Shown: piece by piece, positions 3,867 to 32,855 of the stretch
Layout: the number at the start of each line of letters is the position of its first letter
Position numbering within the stretch: position 1 is the stretch's first letter
Source: a virus
Length of the DNA stretch: 64,000 nucleotides
IMG/VR virus record: IMGVR_UViG_3300044641_005853
Span: 1 to 64,000 of that record
Reading direction: 5' to 3' (one strand)
Notes under the pieces: model-generated
What the model was told of the DNA's origin: nothing
Databases searched by the model: none
What the model saw: only the letters and a program-made list of their open reading frames with translations
Translations under genes and position numbers: made by a program

Positions 3867-3912
3867 AACTGGAACACGGGCACTTGAAAACGAGTGCCCT
3901 TTGTCGTATAAT
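3867..3912 (+). promoter_or_regulatory. Terminator-promoter module 3 with -35 in hairpin loop
   Basis: AACTGGAACA (3867-3876); stem GGGCACT (3878-3884) with AGTGCCC (3893-3899); the -35 TTGAAA (3884-3889) begins at the last stem base and fills the loop. The spacer is exactly 17 nt and the -10 is TATAAT (3907-3912). A short TTTG follows the hairpin. Confidence 0.75.
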
Positions 3913-3936
3913 GACTTTATGAAACAACCAACTCAA

Positions 3937-4296
3937 ATGAAAGACCTTGAACTCGGACAAATGATTTTCGGTAATCCCACAGAGGAATATAGTGTTCCTC
4001 GTGAGAAATGGATGGGTGGTCCATTCCAAATCCTAATTGATGCGATCACAGAAAAGACAGGAGAAAAGGATTATGGATACACTCCACATTTCTCCAACGA
4101 CTTTTTTACTATGCGTCCTTATTATTGGGGTGATGAAGAAGATGAAATGGATAAACCTAACTTTGAAATCCCAAGTGAAAACTTCCGTTTGACTTGGTAT
4201 AAGTATCCTTTTAGGAGTTCTTATGCGAGTGAGAAACTTACTCCAAAGAGATGGAATGATTTGGTTCAAAAATGTATTAAGAGTTTGGAAGAATGA
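3937..4296 (+). CDS. Hypothetical protein, 119 aa
   Basis: Start ATG 3937 sits 24 nt after the -10 box, as in sibling modules; an in-frame ATG at 3919 would make a leaderless message. The protein is rich in aromatics and acidic residues (YYWGDEEDEMDKP). I recognise no domain. Confidence 0.6.
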   Translation: MKDLELGQMIFGNPTEEYSVPREKWMGGPFQILIDAITEKTGEKDYGYTPHFSNDFFTMRPYYWGDEEDEMDKPNFEIPSENFRLTWYKYPFRSSYASEKLTPKRWNDLVQKCIKSLEE

Positions 4297-4544
4297 CTAA
4301 ACATCCAACCAACAACTGGAACTTTCACGATGACGCAGAGGATGCCTTTGTAAAGTGGTTTAATGACTTTTATAGTCCTTATACCTTTCGTTCTGAATGG
4401 TTTTACGGGGACTGTAAAGTAGAAGACGAAAAGACCCGTGAGGACATTATGTATGGTTGGATACACACATCTTTTGTTGCTGGTTGGGAAGCAGCAAACT
4501 ATGCTAAACTGGAGGAGGAAGTAGGACTTACTGATAATGAGTGA
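4293..4544 (+). CDS. Hypothetical protein, 83 aa
   Basis: ATGA overlap with the gene before. Contains WNFHDDAEDAFVKWF and a C-terminal FVAGWEAANYAKLEEE helix. This G-W-E-A-A pattern recalls the ends of other small genes in this run. Function unknown. Confidence 0.6.
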   Translation: MTKHPTNNWNFHDDAEDAFVKWFNDFYSPYTFRSEWFYGDCKVEDEKTREDIMYGWIHTSFVAGWEAANYAKLEEEVGLTDNE

Positions 4545-5334
4545 TATAATTTACTACAAAAATGGTGAGGAAACATACCGTATTTCTCCTCCAACTCCTG
4601 GAACCAAATGTCCTGAAACCAAACTTGAAATCAAAATGACTGAAACCGACATCTCAAAAGTTCTCATAGAGGGAGACTACGCAACCATTATGGGTGTGAA
4701 GTATAAGAGAGTAGAAGAACAAGAATTCACACTTGAACTCACACTTGACGAACTTCACATGCTTGATAAGTATGTTGAATATTGTGAAGAAACAAAAGAG
4801 TTTTTTGATAAACTCAAGAATGCTTATCCTAAACAAAAATCACCAGTAGAAGAAGCATATAAGAATACCTTTGGAGATTATCCTGATATGGTACATAATC
4901 TCAATTCATTCTCAATATTCCAGAAGGGTTATGAGGCAGCACAATCAAAGAATGTTGAACCTTATTGTCCAGATGAACCTGATTGGTATGATGAAGTAGA
5001 ACATGATGAGAAGGACAATCCTCCTTATCGTATCACTGATGAAGTTGTGAATAAAATGCTGAAGGAATGGGAAGAAAATCCCCCAGACTTTTTGAAGTTT
5101 GAAATGGGCAAAACTCTGGAAGATTTGATTACTCGGTGGTGGTTGGATATTCATACAGTCCATAAAGATTGGGATGTTCCAACTTATGTTGATGATTTGA
5201 TTGACCAAATTCAGTTGTGGTTGCCGAAAGAACAATCGCACGAAGGAACACAAGATGCTTCTGTAATTGACTTGGTAGACGGATATAATGACTGCCTCAC
5301 CAAAATCAAATCAAAATTGAGGAATAAAAAATGA
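4537..5334 (+). CDS. Hypothetical protein with GYNDC tail, 265 aa
   Basis: One of the largest unrecognised genes of the left region; overlaps the previous gene by 8 nt and the next by 4. Residues 90-115 (NTFGDYPDMV) and 120-135 (FQKGYEAAQ) resemble the repeated helical pieces in neighbouring small proteins. The C-terminus (LPKEQ to DGYNDCLTKIKSKLR) matches the family ending also seen at 1-121 and 5331-5531. It may be a fusion of several small family units. Function unknown. Confidence 0.65.
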   Translation: MSDIIYYKNGEETYRISPPTPGTKCPETKLEIKMTETDISKVLIEGDYATIMGVKYKRVEEQEFTLELTLDELHMLDKYVEYCEETKEFFDKLKNAYPKQKSPVEEAYKNTFGDYPDMVHNLNSFSIFQKGYEAAQSKNVEPYCPDEPDWYDEVEHDEKDNPPYRITDEVVNKMLKEWEENPPDFLKFEMGKTLEDLITRWWLDIHTVHKDWDVPTYVDDLIDQIQLWLPKEQSHEGTQDASVIDLVDGYNDCLTKIKSKLRNKK

Positions 5335-5531
5335 AACTTCACGAACGACTTACGGAATGGTATTATACTCACGATGCCGTTCAATCTGGTGATGTAATCG
5401 CAAATGAGATTGTGAATGTCGTGAAGGAATGGTTGAAAAACTATCATAAAGAAGACACCAACAAATACGATTTTGACTATTTCAGTGGATGGGCAGATTG
5501 TATTGATATTTTAGAGAGGGATTTACGATGA
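5331..5531 (+). CDS. Small GWADC-family protein, 66 aa
   Basis: ATGA overlap. Shows VVKEWLKNYH, an acidic linker, then SGWADCIDILERDLR, the same arrangement as the ends of 1-121 and 4537-5334. It is directly downstream of its paralog, consistent with tandem duplication. Function unknown. Confidence 0.65.
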   Translation: MKLHERLTEWYYTHDAVQSGDVIANEIVNVVKEWLKNYHKEDTNKYDFDYFSGWADCIDILERDLR

Positions 5532-5719
5532 CTGAACGAAACTTTACAAAAGAACTCCTATACTCATATTATGCTGATATGGAAGGTGGAGATGATGTTG
5601 AGAGCATTGATTATCGTTCTTTGATACATATCATCACCGAACTTCATAGGAGGATTGAGAAACTTGAAAGGAAGTTAGAAAAGCAGGAAGAGTATGCTAT
5701 GGAGCAAAATGAACAATGA
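5528..5719 (+). CDS. Hypothetical coiled-coil protein, 63 aa
   Basis: ATGA overlap. C-terminal half reads ELHRRIEKLERKLEKQEEY, a clear heptad-like coiled coil. It overlaps the next gene by 11 nt. Unknown function. Confidence 0.6.
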   Translation: MTERNFTKELLYSYYADMEGGDDVESIDYRSLIHIITELHRRIEKLERKLEKQEEYAMEQNEQ

Positions 5720-6287
5720 TATGCCGTGGGTCAATCTCACACAAGAAGAAGTAGAAGAACTCCGCAACAAAAAACACGAACTCACTGAATACGGCAAACA
5801 GAGGTTGAAAGAACTTATCTACAAACAGGATATGAAAAAAATGGAAGATGCTGCAAAAAATCTTGTTCTTGAAAATCTCACGCATGAAGAAATGTTGGAA
5901 ATTGCTGAAAAAAGAGAGGCAGAAAACAAAGCACTTGCTACTCTTGATGAACTTTATGAGAAGCACGGTGATGCCATGTTGAAACTTGCAGAGATTGAAA
6001 AGGATGAATGGGAACGTAGAGAACGTGCTGATACTGTCCTGCGACGATATAATCACTTTTATAATGAAGAATGTTCTGGTCTTCCTCACGGGACACCAAT
6101 CACACCAGAACATATGCAGGCACTTACTCTTGAATGTATGATTGATGCTCTCATGTGCGAAAATCTAAATGTAGAGTATAATGTGATTGCGATTGATGAC
6201 ATCAAGGATTTGATTGAAGGATTGTATCGGCAGAGTGATGAGTTTTTGGAACGAGTGAGGAAACTGAAAGAGCAGAATAATGGATGA
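5709..6287 (+). CDS. Hypothetical helical protein, 192 aa
   Basis: Start ATG 5709 (MNNDMPWVNLTQEE) fits the overlap style of the run better than an upstream alternative start. Highly charged and helical; contains the repeat-like phrases LTQEEVEELR and LTHEEMLEIAEKRE. A more ordered section follows (GTPITPEHMQALTLECM). No family recognised. Confidence 0.65.
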   Translation: MNNDMPWVNLTQEEVEELRNKKHELTEYGKQRLKELIYKQDMKKMEDAAKNLVLENLTHEEMLEIAEKREAENKALATLDELYEKHGDAMLKLAEIEKDEWERRERADTVLRRYNHFYNEECSGLPHGTPITPEHMQALTLECMIDALMCENLNVEYNVIAIDDIKDLIEGLYRQSDEFLERVRKLKEQNNG

Positions 6288-6573
6288 ATCATACTATCAG
6301 TATTATGTGATTGATTATTATGCGACTGGAGAAGGTCGTTCCATTTGGTTGATGATTTGTCCGAATAACTCTCCATCATATCCACAGGATTATCTACAAA
6401 ACCGATGGGAGAAGTTTGTAAATGTAGAGTACTATTTGTACGGGACAGAAAAACTCACAGAAGAAGAGTTTATGAAGAAGTATCGTGTGTTTATGCCAGG
6501 ACACATTAAGAATACTATTGAAGAGAAAAGTATGAGTATCTGGCAATCACATTATCATTTTAATCGTTCATAA
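6280..6573 (+). CDS. Hypothetical protein, 97 aa
   Basis: Overlaps the previous gene by 8 nt. Tyrosine-rich N-terminus (SYYQYYVIDYYATGEGRS) with beta-strand character, then a helical stretch. Unknown function. Confidence 0.6.
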   Translation: MDESYYQYYVIDYYATGEGRSIWLMICPNNSPSYPQDYLQNRWEKFVNVEYYLYGTEKLTEEEFMKKYRVFMPGHIKNTIEEKSMSIWQSHYHFNRS

Positions 6574-6689
6574 TGAAACCACTACCAGATAAAAGAGAAT
6601 TGGATATTATGTGGACTGTTGCCACCTCAACCAGTATTGAAACTGGCACAAGACCCCACCACGGTTTCGCAAAAATGGAAATGTCTTGA
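6573..6689 (+). pseudogene. Truncated small gene interrupted by an endonuclease relic
   Basis: ATG 6573 overlaps the preceding stop (TAATG). The frame runs MKPLPDKRELD through GTRPHHGFAKM, then stops 38 codons in, exactly where sequence homologous to the 3' end of the 3171-3854 endonuclease begins in another frame. PHHGFAKM looks like the middle of a longer phage protein, so I infer the original 3' part was lost when the endonuclease segment arrived. It could instead be a genuine 38-residue peptide. Confidence 0.4.
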
Positions 6690-6777
6690 AACTGGTTATG
6701 TTAGTAATGCTGGTGGACTTTCTCAATATCAAAAGGCACGAGCAATAGATACTTCCAAAAGAGTTAGAATATCATAA
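6670..6777 (+). pseudogene. Remnant of homing endonuclease C-terminus
   Basis: In frame from 6670, 35 codons read QKWKCLETGYVSNAGG and end KRVRIS before TAA. The end of the 3171-3854 endonuclease reads QRWECYETGYVSTAAG and ends NRRRIS. Homology continues past the stop through the hairpin and TATAAT of the following module. This is a duplicated and decayed segment, not an intact gene; no start or catalytic domain remains. Confidence 0.75.
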
Positions 6778-6789
6778 GGACACTTCCCA

Positions 6790-6835
6790 AACTGGAACAA
6801 GGGCACTTGAAACCTAGTGCTTTTTGTTGTATAAT
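6790..6835 (+). promoter_or_regulatory. Terminator-promoter module 4 with -35 in hairpin loop
   Basis: AACTGGAACA (6790-6799); stem GCACT (6803-6807)/AGTGC (6816-6820) then TTTTT; -35 TTGAAA (6807-6812), 17-nt spacer, -10 TATAAT (6830-6835). Homologous to the module at 3867-3912, copied with the endonuclease remnant. Confidence 0.75.
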
Positions 6836-6859
6836 GATTTTATGAAAGATAAACCACCT

Positions 6860-7081
6860 ATGGAAAAAAAGTTATGTGTTAGTTGCAAGTATTATCGTAA
6901 GGATTGGTTGGGTCATCTATTTGGATTTGGACACCGACACGATACTTGCACTTCTCCAAATACTTCCACAAATCTTGTAACTGGCAACGAAAGTAGGTTT
7001 TGTGATATGCTCCGTGCTAAATGCTGGGAATCACTTGATTATTCTTGTGGTTCTGATGGTAAGTTCTGGGAGGCAAAATGA
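6860..7081 (+). CDS. Hypothetical cysteine-rich (possible zinc-binding) protein, 73 aa
   Basis: ATG 6860 lies 24 nt after the -10 box; an upstream in-frame start would overlap the promoter. Begins MEKKLCVSCKYYRKDW with C-x-x-C, and further Cys/His follow (GHRHDTC, FCDMLRAKC). This suggests a small metal-binding fold. Function unknown. Confidence 0.6.
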   Translation: MEKKLCVSCKYYRKDWLGHLFGFGHRHDTCTSPNTSTNLVTGNESRFCDMLRAKCWESLDYSCGSDGKFWEAK

Positions 7082-7248
7082 AAGCATTTAAGATATGTTT
7101 TGAGTTGTGGAAACAACTGATGACTTATGATGGTCGTGACCCTGAATGGGACTTTGAAGATTATCAAGGTATTTTTTGGGATTATCTAAACTACTCTTAC
7201 ATTAGAACAGAGTGGAGTATCAAGAGTGAATGGAAGTGGAAGAAATGA
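7078..7248 (+). CDS. Hypothetical tryptophan-rich protein, 56 aa
   Basis: ATGA overlap with the preceding gene. Tryptophans at regular intervals and a basic end (WSIKSEWKWKK). Together with 7420-7722 and 7719-8042 it forms a W/Y-rich group. No family recognised. Confidence 0.55.
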   Translation: MKAFKICFELWKQLMTYDGRDPEWDFEDYQGIFWDYLNYSYIRTEWSIKSEWKWKK

Positions 7249-7427
7249 ACGACGAAAAGAACCCTGATGAGATTGTCGTCAAGGACATAGATATGATACA
7301 CTTTGAGATGATGGATGATGGGTTCTTATGGTGTGGAATCTATCATAAGAATGGTCAGGTTGATCATTTCAACATCACTGCAAAGAAAAACAAACTCTCT
7401 ACTATCTGGATGCCTAATTGTGGATAA
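7245..7427 (+). CDS. Hypothetical protein, 60 aa
   Basis: I chose ATG 7245 (ATGA overlap with the stop at 7246) over an in-frame ATG at 7230. Beta-rich pattern (GFLWCGIYHKNGQVDHFNI). Unknown function. Confidence 0.55.
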   Translation: MNDEKNPDEIVVKDIDMIHFEMMDDGFLWCGIYHKNGQVDHFNITAKKNKLSTIWMPNCG

Positions 7428-7722
7428 TCTCCTACAACGATATAAAAACTACACCCGCAAGCAGTATAATCGTTACTGCTATGATGGTGATTTTGAACCT
7501 CACTTCAGGTGGAACCCATTTGATACAAATAACGATTGGGTGTATGATAATGAGAAGTGGAGACACTTTATCTGGGGATTTCAAAATATAGCAAATGCTT
7601 GGGAGGCGTGGTCTTATTGGATGAGAGATAAGAAGTATTCTTATAAACTTCCTTATGCGATGTGGTCAGAACTAAATGATGGTTGGATGTATATGTATGA
7701 ATATTCTTGGACAAAAAAATGA
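7420..7722 (+). CDS. Hypothetical W/Y-rich protein, 100 aa (GTG start)
   Basis: GTG 7420 overlaps the previous gene by 8 nt; upstream in-frame codons are merely the other frame of that gene. Extremely rich in Trp and Tyr (NANAWEAWSYWMRDKK-like helix, then DGWMYMYEYSW). Possibly related to the next protein, which has a similar W-rich composition. No domain recognised. Confidence 0.55.
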   Translation: MDNLLQRYKNYTRKQYNRYCYDGDFEPHFRWNPFDTNNDWVYDNEKWRHFIWGFQNIANAWEAWSYWMRDKKYSYKLPYAMWSELNDGWMYMYEYSWTKK

Positions 7723-8049: not shown

Positions 8050-8062
8050 CTTCCAAAAAGTC

Positions 8063-15693: not shown

Positions 15694-16227
15694 ATGACAC
15701 AACAATTTAATATTGGTGATATTGTCACCAAAAAACATGGTAAAAAACCTGCTGAAATTGTCAGTAAAGGTTGGTATACGTCAGATTCTTGGACTTGTCG
15801 GTATCTTCATTCCAAACAATCTTTTACTGAATATGCATCTGATCTAAAACTTTACGATGAGGAAACTGAAATGACTGCTGACACTAAAACTCTCTATTCT
15901 TTCACTGTTGATGGTGCTGTTGCCTATGGCACTCACATCGGCACTAACAGTAGCAACCAATACCTGATTGAAGAAAAAGGTACTGGTAAGATTCACGTCT
16001 TTGATAAGAAAGACCTGGAAGAAGTTGTGCCTTATACTTTCAGTGCAACTATGGGTGGTAAAGAAACCCATTATGTTGGTACTCCTGGTGCTCTGAACAA
16101 AGGTGATGTGCTACTCTACACTGGTTCCAGCACTCCCCAGGTTGCCGTGGTAACTGGTGTGGATACCAAGAACAAAAGCGCCCGATCCAAGTTCAAGGGT
16201 GCTAAACTGGTGACTGAGGCAATCTGA
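15694..16227 (+). CDS. Hypothetical beta-rich protein, 177 aa
   Basis: Two beta-barrel-like parts: residues 1-55 (FNIGDIVTKKHGKKPAEIVSK, an SH3/KOW-like opening) and 65-177 with alternating strands and glycines (GALNKGDVLLYTGSSTPQVAVV). Could bind nucleic acid or protein; not identifiable further. It ends directly before a terminator-promoter module. Confidence 0.6.
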   Translation: MTQQFNIGDIVTKKHGKKPAEIVSKGWYTSDSWTCRYLHSKQSFTEYASDLKLYDEETEMTADTKTLYSFTVDGAVAYGTHIGTNSSNQYLIEEKGTGKIHVFDKKDLEEVVPYTFSATMGGKETHYVGTPGALNKGDVLLYTGSSTPQVAVVTGVDTKNKSARSKFKGAKLVTEAI

Positions 16228-16228
16228 A

Positions 16229-16274
16229 AACTGGCACAGGGGCACTTCACAGGTGCCCTTTGATGCCTTATAAT
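16229..16274 (+). promoter_or_regulatory. Terminator-promoter module with -35 in hairpin loop
   Basis: AACTGGCACA (16229-16238); stem GGGCAC (16240-16245)/GTGCCC (16253-16258) with TTT after it; loop TTCACAG. TTCACA (16246-16251) is exactly 17 nt from the -10 TATAAT (16269-16274). The class-B leader follows to ATG 16298. Confidence 0.75.
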
Positions 16275-17775: not shown

Positions 17776-18351
17776 ATGAAAGGCACTATCTATTGTGTCC
17801 ATTGTATTTCAACAGGAAAGAAATACATAGGACAAACAATACAAAAATTACAATACAGAATAAATGACCACTTTTGTAGGTCTTCTAACTCACAATATAA
17901 ATTCCATCGTGCTATAAAAAAGTATGGTAAAAATAACTTCATTTATGGTGTGATTGAAGAATGTGATTTTGAATTGATAAACGAAAAAGAAATGTATTGG
18001 ATAAGAATTTATGATACATTTAAGAATGGATATAATAGTGATACTGGTGGAATGAATGGTAGGTTGCTTTCAGAAGAAACTAAAAGTAAAATACAAAAGA
18101 AAGCACATAAACAAAACAACCCAAGATATGGAGTAAAACTTGATAATGATTTGAAGGAAAAAATAAGAGAATCAAATGCAGATTATGAATATTGTATAGT
18201 GGAACTTGAAAACAACATCACACATAAAACAAACAGTTTAAGAGATTTTTGTAAAAGATATGATTTAAAAAGAGCAAATCTAACAAGAACTTTTACTGGA
18301 AAATATAAACAGCATAAAGGTTTTAGAATGGTAAGTAAGGTGCCACTTTAA
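17776..18351 (+). CDS. GIY-YIG homing endonuclease, 191 aa
   Basis: GIY-YIG catalytic domain at residues 1-90: GTIYCVH, then KKYIGQTIQKLQYRINDHF with the conserved Arg, and the metal-binding Glu in NEKEMYWIRIYDTF followed by GYNSDTGG. Next comes a NUMOD3-type repeat (LSEETKSKIQKKAHKQNNPRYG), then a C-terminal helix-turn-helix-like end (LRDFCKRYDLKRANLTRTF). Expected to make a site-specific break and spread by repair. Freestanding, not in a visible intron. Preceded by the nested late promoter. Confidence 0.85.
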   Translation: MKGTIYCVHCISTGKKYIGQTIQKLQYRINDHFCRSSNSQYKFHRAIKKYGKNNFIYGVIEECDFELINEKEMYWIRIYDTFKNGYNSDTGGMNGRLLSEETKSKIQKKAHKQNNPRYGVKLDNDLKEKIRESNADYEYCIVELENNITHKTNSLRDFCKRYDLKRANLTRTFTGKYKQHKGFRMVSKVPL

Positions 18352-18352
18352 G

Positions 18353-18398
18353 AACTGGCACACTACACTCCCACAAGACCCTCCTAATGCACTATAAT
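18353..18398 (+). promoter_or_regulatory. AACTGGCACA motif and promoter
   Basis: AACTGGCACA (18353-18362) right after the endonuclease stop; -10 TATAAT (18393-18398); the -35 position reads CCCACA at 17 nt spacing (weak). No clear hairpin. ATG 18421 follows at 22 nt. Confidence 0.55.
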
Positions 18399-18564: not shown

Positions 18565-18629
18565 CCGAAGGTGGGATGCCTGTTCCCACTTTGCAAATGA
18601 ACAAGTGACACTTTGATTAGTGGCACACT

Positions 18630-18662
18630 AGGGCATCTGGAGCGATCTGAATGCCCTATAAT
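18630..18662 (+). promoter_or_regulatory. Hairpin overlapping a -10 box
   Basis: Stem AGGGCAT (18630-18636)/ATGCCCT (18651-18657); the last stem base is the first base of the -10 TATAAT (18657-18662). A hairpin and a promoter are fused here too, but with the -10, not the -35, involved. ATG 18688 follows. Confidence 0.6.
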
Positions 18663-19274: not shown

Positions 19275-19678
19275 ATAAGTTCTTTCCACGACATAAAATC
19301 TATGTGGAGATTGTACATCGTGGATTGAGGCGTGAGGGTGTTCATGGATGGTGCGATGTACTGGAAGGAACCTATCGCCCCAGAGAGTTCATTATTGAAC
19401 TGAATACCCATATGCATGAAGAGTTGTATATAAAAACTCTTTTGCACGAACTGACGCACTTGCGGCAGTGGGTGGTGGGTTCTCTCCGCCAGAAACGTGG
19501 AAAAATGTATTATGGTAAAGAATGCGTTGAAGATATTGAGTATTGGTTTCAACCACATGAAATAGAGGCACGGGAGCAAGAAGAAACACTATATCTGGAG
19601 TACCTGCTGGAAACACGGGGTGTGCCAGTCCCACAAGTGGTACATTTCTTTCCCAACCGCCTGCTGCAGGCAGTATAA
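19202..19678 (+). CDS. SprT-like zinc metalloprotease-fold protein, 158 aa
   Basis: Start ATG 19202. H-E-L-T-H at about residues 85-89 (LLHELTHLRQW) is the H-E-x-x-H zinc site, and a downstream E-D-I-E-Y-W-F-Q-P-H-E-I-E-A-R-E segment supplies the third ligand candidates. The layout matches SprT-like/WSS1-like minigluzincins, which cleave DNA-protein crosslinks or other substrates. No C-terminal zinc ribbon is seen. The end of the gene overlaps the next -10 box. Substrate unknown. Confidence 0.65.
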   Translation: MSVLKISGYGYHKRTCEDVASWFLNKFFPRHKIYVEIVHRGLRREGVHGWCDVLEGTYRPREFIIELNTHMHEELYIKTLLHELTHLRQWVVGSLRQKRGKMYYGKECVEDIEYWFQPHEIEAREQEETLYLEYLLETRGVPVPQVVHFFPNRLLQAV

Positions 19679-19720
19679 TTACAAGGTAATCAACAAACGC
19701 TCATGATCACACGCCAGTAA
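19674..19720 (+). promoter_or_regulatory. Promoter, class-B leader and five-codon upstream ORF
   Basis: -10 TATAAT (19674-19679), leader AAGGTAATCAACAAACGCTC, then an ATG at 19703 opening MITRQ-stop (19703-19720). The TAA touches the ATG of the real gene at 19721. In sibling modules the ATG at this leader position starts the main gene, so here the leader has become a tiny upstream ORF. Confidence 0.5.
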
Positions 19721-25412: not shown

Positions 25413-25503
25413 TTGTGCCAGTTCTCATAGTGTCACAATCATTATAGAATACTATAACGATATAACAGTAGCGTTATATGTGACACTATGAGAACTGGCA
25501 CAA
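25413..25503 (+). repeat. 25-bp perfect inverted repeat (large stem-loop)
   Basis: The left arm 25413-25437 and the right arm 25479-25503 are exact complements over 25 bp. Nested inside is a 7-bp stem TATAACG (25453-25459)/CGTTATA (25472-25478). The right arm contains AACTGGCACA. A 15-nt bulge (25438-25452) lies only on the left side. It follows the stop at 25409 by 3 nt and precedes the promoter for 25563, so it may end one transcript, or be an inverted copy of a module end. Confidence 0.85.
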
Positions 25504-25562
25504 TGTTGCCTTGAAGCACCCCGAATCGGGTTTATGTTGGATTCGTTCAACACCAAACCCCA

Positions 25563-25766
25563 ATGATTTTCCTCACTGTTGCTGATCACGGTTGTGTGTA
25601 TACTCTCTCCCAAGAAGACGGGAATGAGTTATATTATGCTCCCATTTATGCCAATGGGAATATTAATCTAGAAGAGTTTGCTCCTGTAGATCTTGCTGGT
25701 GTAGATATGGATCAAATGGAGTTGTTTGATATCCGCAATCGCCTTGTGCAAATGTGCCAGGTGTGA
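25563..25766 (+). CDS. Hypothetical protein, 67 aa
   Basis: MIFLTVADHGCVYTLSQEDG then YYAPIYANGNINLEEFAPVD: a small beta-rich protein with a helical tail. A possible promoter is TTGAAG (25511) with TATGTT (25533), 16-nt spacing. First of the GC-richer single-gene cassettes. Confidence 0.65.
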   Translation: MIFLTVADHGCVYTLSQEDGNELYYAPIYANGNINLEEFAPVDLAGVDMDQMELFDIRNRLVQMCQV

Positions 25767-25812
25767 AACTGGCACACACCCCCTTGCGCTTCTGGTGCTG
25801 GGGGGTTATATT
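25767..25812 (+). promoter_or_regulatory. Hairpin-promoter module with -35 in loop
   Basis: AACTGGCACA (25767-25776); stem CCCCC (25779-25783)/GGGGG (25800-25804); -35 TTGCGC (25784-25789) is the first part of the loop; 17-nt spacer; -10 TATATT (25807-25812). Class-C leader TTTGTTCCTGAAACAC follows to ATG 25839. Confidence 0.7.
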
Positions 25813-25838: not shown

Positions 25839-26036
25839 ATGGAAACTCTCAATCAAGAAATTCAGGAAACATTTGATCAGATTCTAACACAAATTGCCCA
25901 GAAAACTCTGAGCATTAATACACTTGAAACTCGAAACATGGACAACCTTGATTTTCATGAGGTTGCAGTGTGGCAAATTCAAGACGCTTTGCGGGCAGCA
26001 TTCGTTGCTGGATTAGAAGTTGGAGTGACACTCTGA
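25839..26036 (+). CDS. Hypothetical helical protein, 65 aa
   Basis: Almost all helix (METLNQEIQETFDQILTQIA; VWQIQDALRAAFVAGLEVG). Single-gene cassette. Unknown function. Confidence 0.65.
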   Translation: METLNQEIQETFDQILTQIAQKTLSINTLETRNMDNLDFHEVAVWQIQDALRAAFVAGLEVGVTL

Positions 26037-26037
26037 G

Positions 26038-26083
26038 AACTGGCACACACCCCCTAGACACCTGCCTCAAACCCTGCTACATT
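26038..26083 (+). promoter_or_regulatory. AACTGGCACA motif and promoter
   Basis: AACTGGCACA (26038-26047), -35 TAGACA (26055-26060), 17-nt spacer, -10 TACATT (26078-26083), class-C leader ACATTTGTTCCTGAAACACC. CCCCC precedes the -35 but the matching G-run is missing, so no hairpin forms. Confidence 0.7.
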
Positions 26084-26105: not shown

Positions 26106-26276
26106 ATGAACTACTACAACACTCGGATTGTTGAGCGCCATGAGCACCGCACGGAACTGATGAACTCTCAGGCAGAGTTTGCTGATTTCTGCATGTCCCT
26201 CACTTCTATTATGGATGAGACTGCCATGGCATGGTATGCGGATATGAAACGTGCCAACATCTGCTATGATGTGTGA
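26106..26276 (+). CDS. Hypothetical protein, 56 aa
   Basis: ATG 26106 after the class-C leader; in-frame upstream codons are leader. MNYYNTRIVERHEHRTELMN, helical, ends ANICYDV. Unknown. Confidence 0.65.
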   Translation: MNYYNTRIVERHEHRTELMNSQAEFADFCMSLTSIMDETAMAWYADMKRANICYDV

Positions 26277-26285
26277 CACCTTCTG

Positions 26286-26330
26286 AACTGGACCACGGGG
26301 GTTGACAAGGACCCCCAACCCTGCTACATT
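26286..26330 (+). promoter_or_regulatory. Hairpin-promoter module with consensus -35 in loop
   Basis: AACTGGACCA (26286-26295); stem GGGGG (26297-26301)/CCCCC (26312-26316); the loop starts with TTGACA (26302-26307), the consensus -35; 17-nt spacer; -10 TACATT (26325-26330); class-C leader. Confidence 0.8.
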
Positions 26331-27504: not shown

Positions 27505-27840
27505 ATGAACCTCACCAAATCCTTCCCCCCTGCTGATGATCTGCTCGTGCAATTTCAGCAGGTTGACTATCAGAAACTCTACGCCGATGTGCGGAGTTTC
27601 GTTCTCACCGTGGCAGCATTTGTTGCTGTGGTTGCTACTATCCTCTGGAACAAGATTCAAACCATGCGATTCAAAACCCCCGAAATGATCACCCAATTCT
27701 TCTACCTGGGTGTGAACATGATTGGTGAACCTGGCGATGAAATCGTTGGGTTGAGTGTAGGCAACCGCTACGTTGGTTTGTATAGCAACGGCATCGCTTG
27801 GGGTGTGCTCAACGAGCAGGGTGCCCTGACCAATCAGTAA
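27505..27840 (+). CDS. One-TM hypothetical protein, 111 aa
   Basis: ATG 27505 is the first start after the promoter. A soluble N-terminus (MNLTKSFPPADDLLVQF) is followed by a transmembrane helix VLTVAAFVAVVATILW (about residues 37-52). A cytoplasmic or periplasmic beta-rich domain follows (IGEPGDEIVGLSVGNRYVGL). Unknown function. Confidence 0.6.
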   Translation: MNLTKSFPPADDLLVQFQQVDYQKLYADVRSFVLTVAAFVAVVATILWNKIQTMRFKTPEMITQFFYLGVNMIGEPGDEIVGLSVGNRYVGLYSNGIAWGVLNEQGALTNQ

Positions 27841-27890
27841 ACTGGCACACAGGGGGTTGCGTTGCTGCTGCCCCCATGCCAAACTACGTT
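27840..27890 (+). promoter_or_regulatory. Hairpin-promoter module with -35 in loop
   Basis: AACTGGCACA (27840-27849, overlapping the stop); stem GGGGG (27852-27856)/CCCCC (27871-27875); -35 TTGCTG (27862-27867) in the loop; 17-nt spacer; -10 TACGTT (27885-27890); class-C leader TTTGTTCCTGAAACAC. Confidence 0.65.
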
Positions 27891-28183: not shown

Positions 28184-28356
28184 TGAACCGTTCTGAACTG
28201 CAAGATGCTCTCATTCAGCAGATGCTGGATGACATGGACCTCAAGACAATGACCCAACTCTGTTATGACTACCTGGATGAGGGTTATGCAAAGTATTCTG
28301 ATGAAGAATTGATCACCGAGTGTGAAGAATACTACCCCGAACTGCTAGAGGGGTGA
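28183..28356 (+). CDS. Hypothetical helical protein, 57 aa
   Basis: MNRSELQDALIQQMLDDMDL, acidic helical protein ending EEYYPELLEG. Last of the mini-operon. Unknown. Confidence 0.6.
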   Translation: MNRSELQDALIQQMLDDMDLKTMTQLCYDYLDEGYAKYSDEELITECEEYYPELLEG

Positions 28357-28365
28357 CGATCTGAC

Positions 28366-28411
28366 AACTGGCACACAGGGGGTTGACCCCACCCCCAACC
28401 CGTGCCATAAT
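28366..28411 (+). promoter_or_regulatory. Hairpin-promoter module with -35 in loop
   Basis: AACTGGCACA (28366-28375); stem GGGGG (28378-28382)/CCCCC (28392-28396); TTGACC (28383-28388) opens the loop; 17-nt spacer; -10 CATAAT (28406-28411). The untranslated leader (28412-28481) contains a second hairpin GCGGG/CCCGC. Confidence 0.75.
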
Positions 28412-28700: not shown

Positions 28701-28707
28701 GGCACAC

Positions 28708-28729: not shown

Positions 28730-28786
28730 CTTGTGCCACTTGATCAACCTGCACACACCCCCACCCTAAGGGGTCTGCTGCTGCTG

Positions 28787-28792
28787 TATGAT
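28787..28792 (+). promoter_or_regulatory. Possible -10 box TATGAT
   Basis: TATGAT followed by TCGATCAACGCCAACC before ATG 28818. The -35 region is poor. Confidence 0.4.
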
Positions 28793-28817
28793 TCGATCAA
28801 CGCCAACCACCCCACCC

Positions 28818-29432: not shown

Positions 29433-29454
29433 CGCTCTGAGAACCGCACACTGG

Positions 29455-29487
29455 GGGGCACCGTTGCCCCTCTCTGCCCTCTATACT
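29455..29487 (+). promoter_or_regulatory. Hairpin and class-D promoter
   Basis: Stem GGGGCA (29455-29460)/TGCCCC (29465-29470), then -10 TATACT (29482-29487) and leader GATCTCAGTTCGC to ATG 29511. TATACTGATCTCAGTTC recurs at 30044 and 30380. Confidence 0.6.
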
Positions 29488-29510
29488 GATCTCAGTTCGC
29501 AAGCAACCCG

Positions 29511-29684
29511 ATGACCTTCATCTCCTGGAGCGCCGCCCCCAAGGGCACTGGCATGGACCACGCGGAGTTCTTCACCAGCGAAGCACACGCCGTGGATGTT
29601 GCCTTTGACTGGAGCATCGAACTCGGTGGCGCTCCCGTGGTGATCTACTGCAACGAACAGGAATGGATGGAGATCACTGCCTGA
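29511..29684 (+). CDS. Hypothetical protein, 57 aa
   Basis: MTFISWSAAPKGTGMDHAEF, then AFDWSIELGGAPVVIYC: small alpha/beta protein with GC-rich host-like codons. Single-gene cassette with its own terminator. Confidence 0.65.
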   Translation: MTFISWSAAPKGTGMDHAEFFTSEAHAVDVAFDWSIELGGAPVVIYCNEQEWMEITA

Positions 29685-29695
29685 AGTGGCACACA

Positions 29696-29718
29696 GGGGG
29701 CAACCTGCCCCCTTTTTT
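29696..29718 (+). terminator. Rho-independent terminator
   Basis: Perfect 7-bp stem GGGGGCA (29696-29702)/TGCCCCC (29706-29712), loop ACC, then TTTTTT. 29719-29924 holds a second T-tract and TTGACA at 29763; no supported gene, although a 28-codon frame opens at 29818. Confidence 0.9.
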
Positions 29719-29924
29719 ATGGTGCCCCTTTTTTTATTTCAAGGCTGCCCCCGTGACGACTGTTGACATCAACAGGGCTACCCCGCCCCTCCTTCGCTTG
29801 TGACCGTATTATAGGCAATGGATGCCCCGCAAAACCCGCATCGTGTGCCACTTGCTGAACCGTCTAGAACTGCTGCCACCGCCTCTCAGCACCCTGTATG
29901 GTGACAATACGCCGCAACCTCACC

Positions 29925-30038
29925 ATGCGCTACATGATCGCCGCCGTGCTGCTGTGCCTGCTATGGGAACCGATCCGCCCCGTCCGCAGTGTGACAGCTC
30001 AGGCACTGTACACTGCAGGCGACATGATCGCCCGCTGA
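29925..30038 (+). CDS. Small membrane-anchored protein, 37 aa
   Basis: MRYMIAAVLLCLLWEPIRPV followed by a helical tail ending DMIAR. One transmembrane helix, then W-E-P-I-R-P-V, a phrase I associate with short cyanophage proteins. GACAAT at 29903 could be its -10. Short, so moderately sure. Confidence 0.55.
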   Translation: MRYMIAAVLLCLLWEPIRPVRSVTAQALYTAGDMIAR

Positions 30039-30043
30039 CCCCC

Positions 30044-30073
30044 TATACTGATCTCAGTTCACCACCTGAACCC
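30044..30073 (+). promoter_or_regulatory. Class-D promoter and leader
   Basis: -10 TATACT (30044-30049), leader GATCTCAGTTCACCACCTGA then ACCC before ATG 30074. GTTCA-CCACC-TGAAC can fold as a small leader hairpin. -35 weak. Confidence 0.6.
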
Positions 30074-30340
30074 ATGGCAACCGCAACCCGCACCCACCAG
30101 ACCAACCTGCTGGATGTCACCTACAACGGTTGGACTAATTACAAGACCTGGAATGTTGTTCTCTGGATTGAGAACGATGAGGGCATTCAAGACTACATTC
30201 AGGAGCATCACATCTGCTGCTATGAGGAGATGATCGAAGCACTCTATGAGTGTGGCAGCACTGAGACCCCCGATGGGGTGAAGTGGAACGATCCTGAGAT
30301 CAACCGTGCTGAGATCAACGGCGACGTGTTCGATTTCTAA
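30074..30340 (+). CDS. Conserved phage protein (NGWTNYKTWNV family), 88 aa
   Basis: Start ATG 30074 after the promoter; a much longer in-frame opening upstream overlaps other elements and is rejected. YNGWTNYKTWNVVLWIENDE is the hallmark of a DUF7249-like family of phage and plasmid proteins, usually followed by a helical part as here. Function unknown; often beside DNA-metabolism or antirestriction genes. Confidence 0.7.
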   Translation: MATATRTHQTNLLDVTYNGWTNYKTWNVVLWIENDEGIQDYIQEHHICCYEEMIEALYECGSTETPDGVKWNDPEINRAEINGDVFDF

Positions 30341-30385
30341 ACTGGCACACGGGGCGCCCAGCGCCCCTCCCCGACCCCCTATACT
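30340..30385 (+). promoter_or_regulatory. Hairpin and class-D promoter
   Basis: AACTGGCACA (30340-30349, overlapping the stop); stem GGGGCGC-CCA-GCGCCCC (30351-30367); -10 TATACT (30380-30385); leader GATCTCAGTTCACCACCTGA to ATG 30413. Confidence 0.65.
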
Positions 30386-30412
30386 GATCTCAGTTCACCA
30401 CCTGAACCGACC

Positions 30413-30589
30413 ATGACCCAACAGCAACTGCTCCAGAACGCCCGCAACGTGATCATCGGCATGACCGATGCCCAGCGCACCTGCCTGAAGACCGCCGCCA
30501 TCGCCAAGGGGCGCACCGCCCAGCAGGTGAGCAAGGCAGGCACCATGCGCCTGGCGCTCTGGGTGAGCAAGGGCACCAGCGCAATCTGA
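30413..30589 (+). CDS. Hypothetical basic helical protein, 58 aa
   Basis: MTQQQLLQNARNVIIGMTDA then QRTCLKTAAIAKGRTAQQVS: helix-turn-helix-like spacing (A-x(3)-G-R-T-A-Q-Q-V), basic, no acidic patch. Could bind DNA; not proven. Confidence 0.6.
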   Translation: MTQQQLLQNARNVIIGMTDAQRTCLKTAAIAKGRTAQQVSKAGTMRLALWVSKGTSAI

Positions 30590-30596
30590 CCCCTAC

Positions 30597-30631
30597 GGGG
30601 GGCGCTCCTGCCCCCCCTTCCATGCTACAAT
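30597..30631 (+). promoter_or_regulatory. Hairpin and promoter (TACAAT type)
   Basis: Stem GGGGGGC (30597-30603)/GCCCCCC (30610-30616), then -10 TACAAT (30626-30631) and leader TCTCTCAGTTC. Confidence 0.6.
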
Positions 30632-30655
30632 TCTCTCAGTTCAAACGACCCCACC

Positions 30656-30817
30656 ATGCGCTTCGAAGTCCGCTACCAGACCCCCTACGGTGAGCAGCAG
30701 TGGCGCTCCCAGTGGTTCAAAGACCTGGAGGAGGCAGAGCGTATGGTAGACTTCTACCGCTCCTGCGGATCGCCCTCCCACATCGCTCCCTCCTCCCTGG
30801 CACAACTGGAACGCTGA
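30656..30817 (+). CDS. Hypothetical protein, 53 aa
   Basis: MRFEVRYQTPYGEQQWRSQW then FKDLEEAERMVDFYRSCG: strand-turn-strand-helix, a common small phage fold. Unknown. Confidence 0.65.
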   Translation: MRFEVRYQTPYGEQQWRSQWFKDLEEAERMVDFYRSCGSPSHIAPSSLAQLER

Positions 30818-30874
30818 TCAACGGGAATGGGTGCGCCCTTAAAGACGCCCAGCAACTCTAATCCTGAAACCACG

Positions 30875-31024
30875 ATGACACGCGACCTTGCGCTTTCTCT
30901 CCTCCGCTCTGGCAACAACGGCGCACAAATCCTCCAAATTCTTGACTCTATTGTTCTGGGGGATAGTGTTGACGAATGTGATGAGTATGGTGCAGACCCT
31001 ACACTTGATGCCATCGACTTCTGA
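30875..31024 (+). CDS. Hypothetical protein, 49 aa
   Basis: ATG 30875 (MTRDLALSLLRSGNNGAQIL) after a leader CTAATCCTGAAACCACG; helical N-terminus and acidic C-terminus (VDECDEYGADPTLDAIDF). Base composition is slightly less GC-rich than its neighbours. Promoter unclear. Confidence 0.6.
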   Translation: MTRDLALSLLRSGNNGAQILQILDSIVLGDSVDECDEYGADPTLDAIDF

Positions 31025-31056
31025 TCAGACTGTGCCAACCCGCTAGGCGGCACAGC

Positions 31057-31099
31057 GGAGGGCACCGCCCCTCCCCTTTGCCCCCTGATCTGCTACAAT
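31057..31099 (+). promoter_or_regulatory. Hairpin and promoter (TACAAT type)
   Basis: Stem GGAGGG (31057-31062)/CCCTCC (31069-31074); -10 TACAAT (31094-31099); leader TCTCTCAGTTCACCACCTGA to ATG 31124. Confidence 0.6.
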
Positions 31100-31123
31100 T
31101 CTCTCAGTTCACCACCTGAACCG

Positions 31124-31366
31124 ATGACCGACCCCACCCCCCTGAAGACCATCCTCTGCCCCACCCGCTACCCGTTCGCTGTTGCCTACGTGAAGGACGG
31201 TAAGATCGCCAGCACCATCGCCTACGCTACCACCCTGGAGGACTGCTACTTCCAGGTGCAGGGATGGCGCAGCAGCATGGGCAGCGCCGACTACATCATG
31301 GCAGAGCAGAAGGAGATCGGTGAGGAGACCCCCGATCGGGTGAACACGTACTGGGTGGCGGTCTGA
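31124..31366 (+). CDS. Hypothetical protein, 80 aa
   Basis: PFAVAYVKDGKIASTIAYAT then LEDCYFQVQGWRSSMGSADY: alpha/beta. GC-rich. Single-gene cassette. Unknown. Confidence 0.65.
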   Translation: MTDPTPLKTILCPTRYPFAVAYVKDGKIASTIAYATTLEDCYFQVQGWRSSMGSADYIMAEQKEIGEETPDRVNTYWVAV

Positions 31367-31373
31367 TCCGCCA

Positions 31374-31403
31374 GGGGGGCACACCCGCCCCCCATGCTAC
31401 AAT
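31374..31403 (+). promoter_or_regulatory. Hairpin and promoter (TACAAT type)
   Basis: Perfect stem GGGGGGC (31374-31380)/GCCCCCC (31387-31393), then -10 TACAAT (31398-31403). ATG 31425 is 21 nt downstream. Confidence 0.65.
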
Positions 31404-31424
31404 TCTCTCAACCGCAACCGACCG

Positions 31425-31610
31425 ATGACCGTGACCCTGACCCCCATCTCCACCAAGGCGAAGAACCGCCTGGCAAACCAGATGGCAGGCGACCCCGTGG
31501 TTGTGGTTGAGCAGCGCGACGGCAACGACCTGTTCTGCGTGAGCAGCAACGGCACCTGGTGCGCCTGGGTGAACTGCCTCACCGATCCGAACTGGGCAGT
31601 TCGCTTCTGA
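31425..31610 (+). CDS. Hypothetical protein, 61 aa
   Basis: KAKNRLANQMAGDPVVVVEQ followed by FCVSSNGTWCAWVNCL: helix then beta hairpins with three cysteines. Unknown. Confidence 0.65.
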   Translation: MTVTLTPISTKAKNRLANQMAGDPVVVVEQRDGNDLFCVSSNGTWCAWVNCLTDPNWAVRF

Positions 31611-31621
31611 CCTGCTACAGT
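31593..31621 (+). promoter_or_regulatory. Promoter inside a gene end
   Basis: TGGGCA (31593-31598), 17-nt spacer, TACAGT (31616-31621); overlaps the last codons of the preceding gene. The leader ends in a run of 12 C (31638-31649) abutting ATG 31650. Confidence 0.5.
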
Positions 31622-31649
31622 ACCCAAGCAACCGACACCCCCCCCCCCC

Positions 31650-31829
31650 ATGGCGATCTTCTCCCAGTGCTCCGACCTGCAGACCCGCGAAACCATGTGG
31701 GTTGCCCGTAAGACTGACGATGCCCCTCAGGATCGCTTCGCTGGGCAGATCAACCCTGCCGAAGGGTACTGGTGGGCAGCACGTTACGCCGAACGCTACG
31801 CCGACAACGTGGTGCCCCTGGAGGGTTGA
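31650..31829 (+). CDS. Hypothetical protein, 59 aa
   Basis: MAIFSQCSDLQTRETMWVAR then INPAEGYWWAARYAERYADN. The start codon directly follows a 12-C tract. Unknown family. Confidence 0.6.
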   Translation: MAIFSQCSDLQTRETMWVARKTDDAPQDRFAGQINPAEGYWWAARYAERYADNVVPLEG

Positions 31830-31854
31830 CCTCCTGCCCCCGACCCTGTAGAAT
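31826..31854 (+). promoter_or_regulatory. Sigma70-type promoter overlapping a stop codon and small hairpin
   Basis: TTGACC (31826-31831) includes the stop TGA of the preceding gene; 17-nt spacer; TAGAAT (31849-31854). A 5-bp stem GGAGG/CCTCC brackets the -35. Class-E leader TCCAGAGCAAACCGCACCGC follows. Confidence 0.75.
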
Positions 31855-31879
31855 TCCAGAGCAAACCGCACCGCACCCG

Positions 31880-32104
31880 ATGACCACCGCCCTCCGCGAC
31901 TGCCTCAACGTGTACGCCCCTGGCACCACCTTCTCTGACATCCTGTGGGATTGCTCCCACCCCGCCAACGACACCATCGCTTGGCACATTGCCCTGGAGT
32001 CTGCAGAGATGCACTCCTGCCTCTACGACTTCCGCAAAGACTACGGGCACCTGCAGGGTGAGCGCATCGACTGCGGTGAGTTCCTCTCCTGGTTGGGGTA
32101 CTGA
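31880..32104 (+). CDS. Hypothetical protein, 74 aa
   Basis: MTTALRDCLNVYAPGTTFSD, then helical ALESAEMHSCLYDFRKDYG. Start fixed by the class-E leader. Unknown. Confidence 0.65.
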   Translation: MTTALRDCLNVYAPGTTFSDILWDCSHPANDTIAWHIALESAEMHSCLYDFRKDYGHLQGERIDCGEFLSWLGY

Positions 32105-32111
32105 TCCCTAC

Positions 32112-32149
32112 GGGGCACCTTGACGGGTGCCCCACCCACCCTGTAGAAT
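32112..32149 (+). promoter_or_regulatory. Hairpin-promoter module: the loop is exactly the -35
   Basis: Perfect 8-bp stem GGGGCACC (32112-32119)/GGTGCCCC (32126-32133) whose six-base loop TTGACG (32120-32125) is the -35 hexamer; 18-nt spacer; -10 TAGAAT (32144-32149). Class-E leader to ATG 32175. Confidence 0.85.
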
Positions 32150-32174
32150 TCCAGAGCAAACCGCAACGCACCCG

Positions 32175-32477
32175 ATGCCTGCCACCATCGCCACCGCCTT
32201 CACCCCCGACCAGATGCTCTACCTGGGGCACTCCGTGTTCAGCAGCGCCATGCGCTCCTGGGCACTGGTGATGAACAACGACAACGATGCCGAACTGCTG
32301 GTCCTGTTCAACAGCAGCGACACCGTGTACCGCTACGCCTTCCGCGCCTGGGAGGATGCCCGCAACTGGGATGAGATACGCAAGCAGGGTGAGGAGGAGG
32401 ATGCCGACCGCATCTCCTGGGGGCGCTGCTTCCACCGCTTCCTGAGCGAAGGGGCGATCCTGCCCATCGCCGCCTGA
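32175..32477 (+). CDS. Hypothetical protein, 100 aa
   Basis: ATIATAFTPDQMLYLGHSVF, then beta-rich WALVMNNDNDAELLVLFN and a helical W-rich end. GC-rich codons. Unknown. Confidence 0.65.
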   Translation: MPATIATAFTPDQMLYLGHSVFSSAMRSWALVMNNDNDAELLVLFNSSDTVYRYAFRAWEDARNWDEIRKQGEEEDADRISWGRCFHRFLSEGAILPIAA

Positions 32478-32484
32478 ACCCTGC

Positions 32485-32522
32485 GGGGCACCTTGACGGG
32501 TGCCCCATCCACCCTGTAGAAT
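32485..32522 (+). promoter_or_regulatory. Hairpin-promoter module: the loop is exactly the -35 (second copy)
   Basis: Stem GGGGCACC (32485-32492)/GGTGCCCC (32499-32506), loop TTGACG (32493-32498), 18-nt spacer, TAGAAT (32517-32522). Essentially a copy of 32112-32149. Confidence 0.85.
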
Positions 32523-32547
32523 TCCAGAGCACACCGCACCGCACCCG

Positions 32548-32808
32548 ATGCTCACCTCCATCATCCGCACCGCGATCCGCACCCGCCTGATCAACGACGG
32601 CCCGATGACCTGCAGCGACCTGGTTCGCGCCATGGGCATGGACCCCCGCCGCCATAAGGGCACCATTCACGCCCTCATGGTTGACATGGAGAAGGCAGGC
32701 ACCCTGGATGCCACCCGCAGCGACAGCGGCAAGCGCGACCTCTGGTTCATCGTGCCCACCGCGATCCGCAAGCGTGATCGCCTTGCCGCCGCCATGGCAG
32801 GAGTCTGA
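32548..32808 (+). CDS. Winged-helix-like DNA-binding protein, 86 aa
   Basis: GPMTCSDLVRAMGMDPRRHK, then HALMVDMEKAGTLDATRSDS and KRDLWFIV: helix, helix, recognition helix and wing, the typical winged helix order for residues about 15-75. The C-terminal tail is basic. Likely a small transcription regulator; its target is unknown. Alone behind its own promoter. Confidence 0.6.
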   Translation: MLTSIIRTAIRTRLINDGPMTCSDLVRAMGMDPRRHKGTIHALMVDMEKAGTLDATRSDSGKRDLWFIVPTAIRKRDRLAAAMAGV

Positions 32809-32817
32809 TTCGTTCGT

Positions 32818-32855
32818 GGGGGTGGGTTGACTCCTGTCCCCCTACCGTCTACAAT
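32818..32855 (+). promoter_or_regulatory. Hairpin-promoter module with -35 in loop
   Basis: Stem GGGGG (32818-32822)/CCCCC (32838-32842); TTGACT (32827-32832) in the loop; 17-nt spacer; TACAAT (32850-32855); leader ACGAGAGCACACCGCAACCG-type class E to ATG 32881. Confidence 0.75.

Follow-up and report, generated by a model that had tools for sequence, protein, structure and literature searches.

Promoter-early stem-loops (PeSLs) are compact elements that combine a sigma70-type promoter with a stem-loop and that lie between small genes in the variable genome regions of T4-type phages. They were reportedly described by Arbiol et al. in 2010 and by Comeau et al. in 2014 (Genome Biol Evol). Here, a series of related elements, referred to as cassettes, is described for the first 64,000 nucleotides (the window; 64 kb out of a 67.9-kb virus record) of the IMG/VR record IMGVR_UViG_3300044641_005853. 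In most of these cassettes, a near-palindrome of 20 bp, referred to as the operator, is followed at a near-fixed distance by a -10 box, and in part of the copies the intervening sequence can fold as a hairpin. Judged by their sequence, they are fairly probably intergenic regulatory cassettes of a T4-type cyanophage, each consisting of an operator-controlled promoter, with a possible terminator joined to it in some of the copies.

The cassettes resemble PeSLs in that a promoter of the sigma70 type, as judged by sequence, and a stem-loop are fused, though not in every cassette; they differ in that the hairpin loop lies mostly on the -35 box and in that a 20-bp operator occurs upstream. Phage RB49, which we take to be the PeSL type phage, has a hairpin in the spacer or the -10 box in the loop and no operator, and its geometry differs from that of the cassettes, though geometry is perhaps no part of the published PeSL definition. 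Phage KVP40 differs as well, with the -35 box mostly in an arm and no operator. As in the MotA/AsiA-dependent middle promoters of T4, a strong -10 box is combined with a weak or missing -35 box and an upstream protein site, the latter being putative here. However, the MotA box lies around -30, whereas the operator is centred near -53. Both motA and asi are lacking in cyanomyoviruses according to PMC2984593, in which early and middle transcription control in these phages was called unclear in 2010 and a putative middle promoter was mentioned for two phages. For Synechococcus phage S-PM2, PMC4503421 reports stem-loops in the ORFanage, including one at 11369-11391, and cites the two PeSL papers; it discusses the stem-loops apart from the early promoter, considers PeSLs too sparse in this phage, and doubts their role. 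In the present analysis, that stem-loop starts where an operator (11351-11370) ends, and four operator matches were found within 5080-11370, in contrast to the sparseness stated in that paper. Finally, the haloarchaeal virus HGTV-1 carries motifs of a TATA box and an inverted repeat (PMC3950731); by description, these are alike in that a promoter-like box plus an inverted repeat recurs ahead of many genes, in this case of an archaeal virus.

A common operator and its distance to the -10 box

Most window cassettes up to 30.4 kb start with one word, ACACTnnnAGAACTGGCACA or a near form of it, which was overlooked in the original prediction, as were three sites (18341, 18606, and 26026) with this element and a -10 box but without a strict hairpin. 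A fuller form, derived from marine phages, is TG[AC]CA[CG]TTnnnnAA[CG]TGGCA followed by CA, the 20-bp near-palindrome. An exact-pattern scan of IMG/VR with ACACTnnnAGAACTGGCACA returned at least 119 stretches; among the matches listed, 103 of the 110 distinct copies had their best -10 box (at least 4/6, sought 10 to 43 nt downstream of the 20-mer) at 28-31 nt 3' of it. Operator sites were then counted with up to two mismatches to the pattern, and a -10 box of at least 4/6 was sought at 26-33 nt and in an equally wide control stretch at 8-15 nt. Such a box was present at 20/28 sites in S-SRM01 (1 in the control stretch), 13/15 in S-PM2 (4), 37/61 in ACG-2014f (5), 20/28 in S-SSM7 (9), 23/26 in P-SSM2 (4), 6/9 in Syn9 (0), 17/23 in the window (1), and 407/519 IMG/VR loci (47), the site totals being inflated because a near-palindrome can be counted on both strands. 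The operator thus occurred in all six other cyanophages scanned whole, of both freshwater and marine origin, with only nine sites in Syn9, and the same pattern with up to two mismatches gave no site in RB49, KVP40, and T4. Similarly, a search for the 20-mer with up to three mismatches found 13 matches in G000, 16 in S-SRM01, 23 in ACG-2014f, and 16 in S-SSM7, whereas the reversed pattern gave at most one match per cyanophage and four in KVP40.

The operator sites were clustered at 27-57 kb in ACG-2014f, 38-51 kb in S-SSM7, 44-68 kb in P-SSM2, 51-90 kb in S-SRM01, and 2-20 kb in S-PM2, and were scattered in Syn9. In the parts of S-SRM01 and S-PM2 that were inspected, the genes in these clusters were mostly small and hypothetical. 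At several operator sites of P-SSM2 (tiles L265-L277), a -10 box was scored on both strands; two-way promoters are possible there, and chance matches are likely in such AT-rich sequence. A host origin of the 20-mer was considered and rejected: one form of the operator, searched in 84,980 genomes of bacteria and archaea, was matched 56 times, which is close to the number of about 30 estimated by chance, and no match was in a genome titled as cyanobacterium.

The distance from operator to -10 box varied little, whatever the stem in between. When -10 boxes matching 5/6 or better were taken within 26-33 nt and ties were resolved towards 29.5 nt, a range and a rule that by themselves narrow the spread, the named phages and the window together gave 29.34 nt (standard deviation 0.83, n = 61) for stems of at most 4 bp, 29.85 nt (0.86, n = 13) for stems of 5 bp, and 29.9 nt (0.83, n = 20) for stems of at least 6 bp. 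The corresponding values for the IMG/VR copies were 29.54 nt (0.86, n = 181), 29.5 nt (0.91, n = 28), and 29.58 nt (0.83, n = 36). The distance from the -10 box to the first ATG had a standard deviation of 8.3 (n = 94). As the spacing is narrow with or without a hairpin, operator and -10 box behave as one unit, to which the hairpin is optional.

Hairpins were assessed at 327 sites chosen by operator and -10 box alone, near-copies being dropped. A strict hairpin was present at 70 of these, compared with 28.8 in shuffled sequences (maximum 41), and stems of at least 7 bp numbered 25 versus 2.7. The window contributed 13 sites, six of which had a hairpin (1.5 when shuffled). Because the position of the loop varies, covariation scored axis by axis over the 327 sites was smeared, and a histogram of the best hairpins was used instead; the loop centres peaked at 18-20 nt before the -10 box, which is the position of the -35 box (34 sites versus 3.6 expected). 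The mean folding z-score ranged from -0.8 to -1.4 in five of seven phages, the window counting as one of them, and was in the same range for the IMG/VR copies. The -35 match itself was usually poor, with a mean of 2.38/6 at the 17-nt register versus about 1.35 elsewhere, and reached 4.17 in ACG-2014f. Among the 17 window sites with operator and -10 box, most had a -10 box of 5-6/6 and the -35 box was often weak.

Hairpins fused to the promoter in the window and in other T4-type phages

The original prediction had listed ten places in the window where a hairpin after a stop codon would hold the -35 box of the next gene in its loop. An independent scan, blind to that list, required a promoter of at least 9/12, a -35 box with 3 nt or more inside the loop, and a stem of at least 6 bp with at least four G-C pairs, G-U pairs and one mismatch being tolerated; 60 shuffles of the + strand in 500-bp blocks served as control. 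Nine strict composites were found on the + strand and none on the - strand, versus a shuffle mean of 0.48 and a maximum of 2, so that this geometry is not equally frequent in shuffled sequence. Inverted repeats were indeed present at all ten places, and seven of them were recovered as strict composites (-35 boxes at 3884, 16246, 26302, 28383, 32120, 32493, and 32827). The other three were looser: the stem at 6803 has a core of 5 bp lengthened by G-U pairs, the -35 box at 25779 lies in the inner arm rather than in the loop according to RNAfold, and the site at 27852 has an outer loop of 14 nt and a -10 box TACGTT that matches 3/6. The two remaining strict composites were outside the list, one at 31826 and one at 7520; the latter is located within an ORF (open reading frame) and is probably due to chance, which may also hold for the site at 27852. 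The copies at 32112 and 32485 were correctly described as having perfect 8-bp arms, a loop that is exactly TTGACG, and an 18-nt spacer; as they also have a common -10 box and leader, they may be recent duplicates.

It had further been claimed that T-tracts accompany the AT-rich copies and are mostly absent from the GC-rich ones, which was borne out by the number of T among the 8 nt that follow the stem, namely 5, 6, 4, and 5 at 3878, 6803, 16240, and 25779, and 1, 1, 1, 0, 1, and 3 at the other six places. Of the listed sites, a terminator scan of 1-20000 flagged 3878 and 6799 only, and a scan of 20001-40000 flagged none. Termination at the T-rich copies would be plausible.

Composites with the -35 box in the loop were also counted over whole genomes, regardless of the operator, on both strands and with six shuffles per genome. 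Counts (shuffle mean and maximum in brackets) were 14 (4.5, 6) in S-SRM01, 15 (2.7, 5) in S-PM2, 19 (7.5, 13) in ACG-2014f, and 11 (5.2, 9) in S-SSM7. Those of P-SSM2 (8; 4.8, 9) and Syn9 (6; 6.3, 12) were within the shuffle range. Outside the cyanophages, the counts were 20 (5.8, 7) in KVP40, 9 (5.2, 9) in RB49, and 3 (3.8, 9) in T4. Hence, the expected excess over shuffled sequence in related cyanophages was found in four of six, exceeding all shuffles, but not in P-SSM2 and Syn9, and it was shared by the non-cyanophage KVP40.

Promoter-hairpin pairs in RB49 and KVP40, taken from promoters of at least 10/12 with a loop offset of -15 to +35, were arranged in other ways. Among the 29 pairs listed for RB49, the -10 box was in the loop in 16, the hairpin was in the spacer in 12, and one was different; in KVP40, the -35 box was in the ascending arm in five of nine pairs. 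Measured from the centre of the -35 box, the loop offset was 0 to +2 in five of the six close pairs of the window, the sixth being at +12.5; for RB49, 28 of the 29 pairs had an offset of about +11 or of +20 to +23. This indicates that the fusion recurs and that its geometry differs by lineage. The earlier proposal that the geometry itself is selected is therefore supported in part only. The fusion is far above chance in the window, and the loop peak at the operator sites does fall on the -35 box. Yet, a strict hairpin accompanies just 70 of the 327 operator sites, the -35 box is often poor, RB49 and KVP40 fuse the two parts otherwise, and the distance from operator to -10 box is the less variable property. 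To regard the exact geometry as the selected thing was thus too strong.

Cassettes, neighbouring genes, and source virus of the window

The cassettes are listed in Table 1. In the composite at 31826, the TGA stop codon (31827-31829) of a 59-aa ORF lies inside both the -35 box and the inverted repeat. Three cassettes at 30600-31410 have GCTACAATTCTCTCA in common and no evident -35 box, which suggests an extended -10 promoter. At 25414-25502, two full operators stand face to face and form a long inverted repeat. A scan of window positions 1-35000 against Rfam 15 with E-values up to 1 returned no cassette family, only tRNA and MIR2600 hits far below the gathering score; the latter (both strands, 25415-25501) were traced to this inverted repeat of two operators and discarded. 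Apart from the cassettes, the window contains a 30-bp unit, TGCTCTTTAATACTCATAAATGCCTTCTAG, in five perfect tandem copies (24644-24794), dispersed short CGAGAT-type repeats, CACGAGATCTGCACGAGA and similar, seen by eye at 24860-25250 and 26826-26965, and two very long ORFs of 4127 aa (38101-50484) and 2349 aa (52082-59131), the latter with a DUF4815 domain.

Table 1. Positions of cassettes and operator sites in the window
Feature	Position	Strand	Components
Cassette	666..722	+	operator 666-687; 8-bp hairpin 688-708, loop CCACA over poor -35; -10 TATAAT 717-722
Cassette	1134..1191	+	operator 1134-1155; 8-bp hairpin 1156-1176; -10 TATAAT 1186-1191
Cassette	3855..3912	+	operator 3855-3876; hairpin 3878-3899; -35 TTGAAA 3884-3889; -10 TATAAT 3907-3912
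Cassette	6778..6835	+	operator 6778-6799; hairpin 6800-6823 (G-U pairs), T tract; -35 TTGAAA 6807-6812; -10 6830-6835
Cassette	16217..16274	+	degenerate operator 16217-16238 (3 mismatches); hairpin 16239-16259; -35 TTCACA 16246-16251; -10 16269-16274
Operator and -10, without strict hairpin	18341..18398	+	operator 18341-18362 (0 mismatches); -10 TATAAT 18393-18398
Operator and -10, without strict hairpin	18606..18662	+	operator 18606-18627; -10 18657-18662
Operator and spacer hairpin	19623..19679	+	operator 19623-19644; 5-bp hairpin 19659-19671; -10 19674-19679
Operator promoter	25481..25538	+	operator 25481-25502; -35 TTGAAG; -10 TATGTT 25533-25538 (4/6); spacer inverted repeat only 4 bp (by eye)
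Cassette	25755..25812	+	operator 25755-25776; hairpin from 25779 over TTGCGC; -10 TATATT 25807-25812
Operator promoter, without strict hairpin	26026..26083	+	operator 26026-26047; -35 TAGACA; -10 TACATT 26078-26083
Cassette	26274..26330	+	operator 26274-26295 (3 mismatches); 7-bp hairpin 26297-26316; -35 TTGACA 26302-26307; -10 TACATT 26325-26330
Weak cassette	27840..27890	+	right half-site AACTGGCACA 27840-27849; inverted repeat over TTGCGT, 14-nt loop; poor -10 TACGTT
Cassette	28354..28411	+	operator 28354-28375; hairpin 28378-28396; -35 TTGACC; -10 CATAAT 28406-28411
Half-operator cassette	30340..30385	+	right half AACTGGCACA 30340-30349; 7-bp hairpin 30351-30367 (by eye); -10 TATACT 30380-30385; no -35
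Operator-less cassette	31820..31854	+	-35 TTGACC 31826-31831; -10 TAGAAT 31849-31854
Operator-less cassette	32112..32149	+	8-bp perfect stem; loop TTGACG; -10 TAGAAT
Operator-less cassette	32485..32522	+	near-copy of 32112
Operator-less cassette	32818..32855	+	loop TTGACT; -10 TACAAT

The G+C content of the window is 36%, compared with 52-60% in an island at 28000-33300, where small genes are numerous and a cassette precedes each of them. A comparison of window positions 20000-40000 with 50,697 phage records gave 39 DNA matches, 37 of which were to cyanophages by name, and the matches of the window to S-SRM01, a Synechococcus phage from a reservoir (Kyanoviridae), were in baseplate genes. We read the source virus as a T4-type cyanophage. 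The gene for gp23 was present in four of the 13 IMG/VR carrier records that were checked and was not found in the window's own record, which is possibly a fragment; most of the carrier records may be partial.

Downstream of the operator promoters, 460 ORFs belonging to 254 families were found. An operator promoter preceded a 315-aa DUF6267 family in five named phages (L255, 2169-3116) and a 377-aa AAA_5 family, presumably cobS-like, in three (L246, 16160-17293). This indicates that not ORFans alone are served.

Proposed role and alternative explanations

From 5' to 3', the proposed layout of a cassette would comprise the end of the upstream gene (with its TGA as the left end of the operator in some copies), the operator plus CA, 29-30 nt with a mostly weak -35 box, a strong -10 box, a short leader, and the next ATG; in a minority of the copies, the 29-30 nt would also fold as a strict hairpin with its loop mostly on the -35 box. 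At the DNA level, the next small gene would be started by the host sigma70 RNA polymerase, and a dimeric DNA-binding protein on the operator probably helps or gates initiation; we infer that it would activate rather than repress. At the RNA level, the hairpin, where present, would end or cap the upstream message. As an outcome, every small gene or small operon would be transcribed as a separate unit while taking up very little room. More tentatively, and with somewhat less than even confidence, the operator promoters may represent a hidden regulon that is common to T4-type cyanophages, in which early-region promoters, up to tens of them in a genome, would carry one 20-bp operator read by a phage-encoded dimeric regulator other than MotA/AsiA, timing early or middle transcription; to save space, some of these promoters would also contain a terminator hairpin.

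Several observations weigh against this interpretation. Of the 49 sites with a hairpin on the -35 box, only 14 had at least five T among the 8 nt that follow the stem, and the best 7-nt T count before the -10 box was 3.31 compared with 3.17 at the 278 other sites; the lack of T enrichment after the hairpins weakens the terminator part. For Syn9, the folding z-score was near 0 (-0.02, n = 6), and that of S-PM2 was weak (-0.33). In addition, the operator is scarce in some cyanophages, the 20-mer with up to three mismatches being found three times in Syn9 and five times each in S-SCSM1, DSL-LC03, and S-CAM7 (the last three covered by the 20-mer search only, outside the tile analysis), and the GC-rich cassettes at 30.5-33 kb lack it, so that it is not obligatory. 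Furthermore, 48 ORFs of P-SSM2 (some antisense) that occur in at least four of five other cyanophages and are absent from three T4-group phages were taken as regulator candidates, and no family named as a regulator was found among the 11 that were scanned (10 in Pfam, 10 in PHROGs). A 70-aa protein with a helix-turn-helix look was rejected, as it had no match in S-SSM7, which does have the operator.

The nearest alternative is that the cassettes are plain PeSLs, each a host sigma70 early promoter plus terminator, and that the 20-mer is a relic of cassette copying to which no protein binds. Operator-free composites of the PeSL type in RB49 and KVP40, the GC-rich window cassettes without operator, and the resemblance of many cassettes to copies of one another would fit this explanation, which is nevertheless rather unlikely, as operator and 29-30 nt spacing have been kept in marine and freshwater phages in which the intervening sequence diverged, and as the operator is kept also where no strict hairpin is present. 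A role mainly in gene shuffling, for which the cassettes would provide patches of homology as has been suggested for PeSLs, initially seemed supported by the locus pairs at cassettes, which were homologous on one side only in 309 cases (upstream in 96, downstream in 213) and on both sides in 19. Against local controls, this suggestion of a recombination hot-spot was lost and is not claimed here, since operator-free junctions within 3 kb were almost as often broken (1841/1996) as those at cassettes (95/98; Fisher p = 0.11; ORFs called by a rough rule); such a main role is improbable.

Slightly more improbable still is that the 20-mer acts as RNA, namely at the 3' end of the upstream message, which it would stabilise or mark for processing beside the terminator hairpin, with the promoter being incidental. 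Indeed, many copies start only a few bases from the stop codon of the upstream gene; at 22 of the 136 named sites, this stop codon forms the operator's left end. In addition, a right half-site precedes terminator-like hairpins at 29695 (+) and 28708 (-). Yet, 51 of the same 136 sites have no co-directional ORF end (at least 40 codons) nearby, and the distance to the -10 box is narrow and independent of the hairpin. Moreover, the two inner C/G positions of the operator halves were complementary in 37 of 122 sites, versus about 62 expected from the column make-up (the copies being related), and their lack of complementarity in the other 85 is unlike an RNA stem. A chance overlap of common hairpins with promoter-like words in short intergenic gaps is very hard to credit. 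Such words are frequent: the block-shuffle scan counted 124 of them on the + strand, no excess over the 122 in shuffles of that strand, and 148 on the - strand. In a second scan of both strands with whole-region shuffles, they were in excess, with 92 versus 68.2 in 1-20000 and 69 versus 46.6 in 20001-40000; the composite counts of P-SSM2 and Syn9 would also agree with chance. For the whole set, chance is refuted by the nine composites versus 0.48 after local shuffling, with none on the other strand, and by the loop-centre peak (34 versus 3.6).

The cassettes are real, and they represent a widespread cyanophage form of a known element. Fused switches are known from related phages, and for the operator part no description was found in the literature searched, to which the two PeSL papers named above and an ISME J paper on transcription in Syn9 did not belong; AACTGGCACA as literature text gave no cyanophage title among the matches listed. 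The occurrence of several hairpin-promoter geometries in T4-type phages suggests that the compaction of many small genes is selected rather than one special shape. With a common operator at near-fixed spacing in up to tens of promoters per genome, the operator-controlled promoters proposed here offer a concrete candidate for early and middle control in cyanomyoviruses, and the operator may be used as bait for its putative protein.

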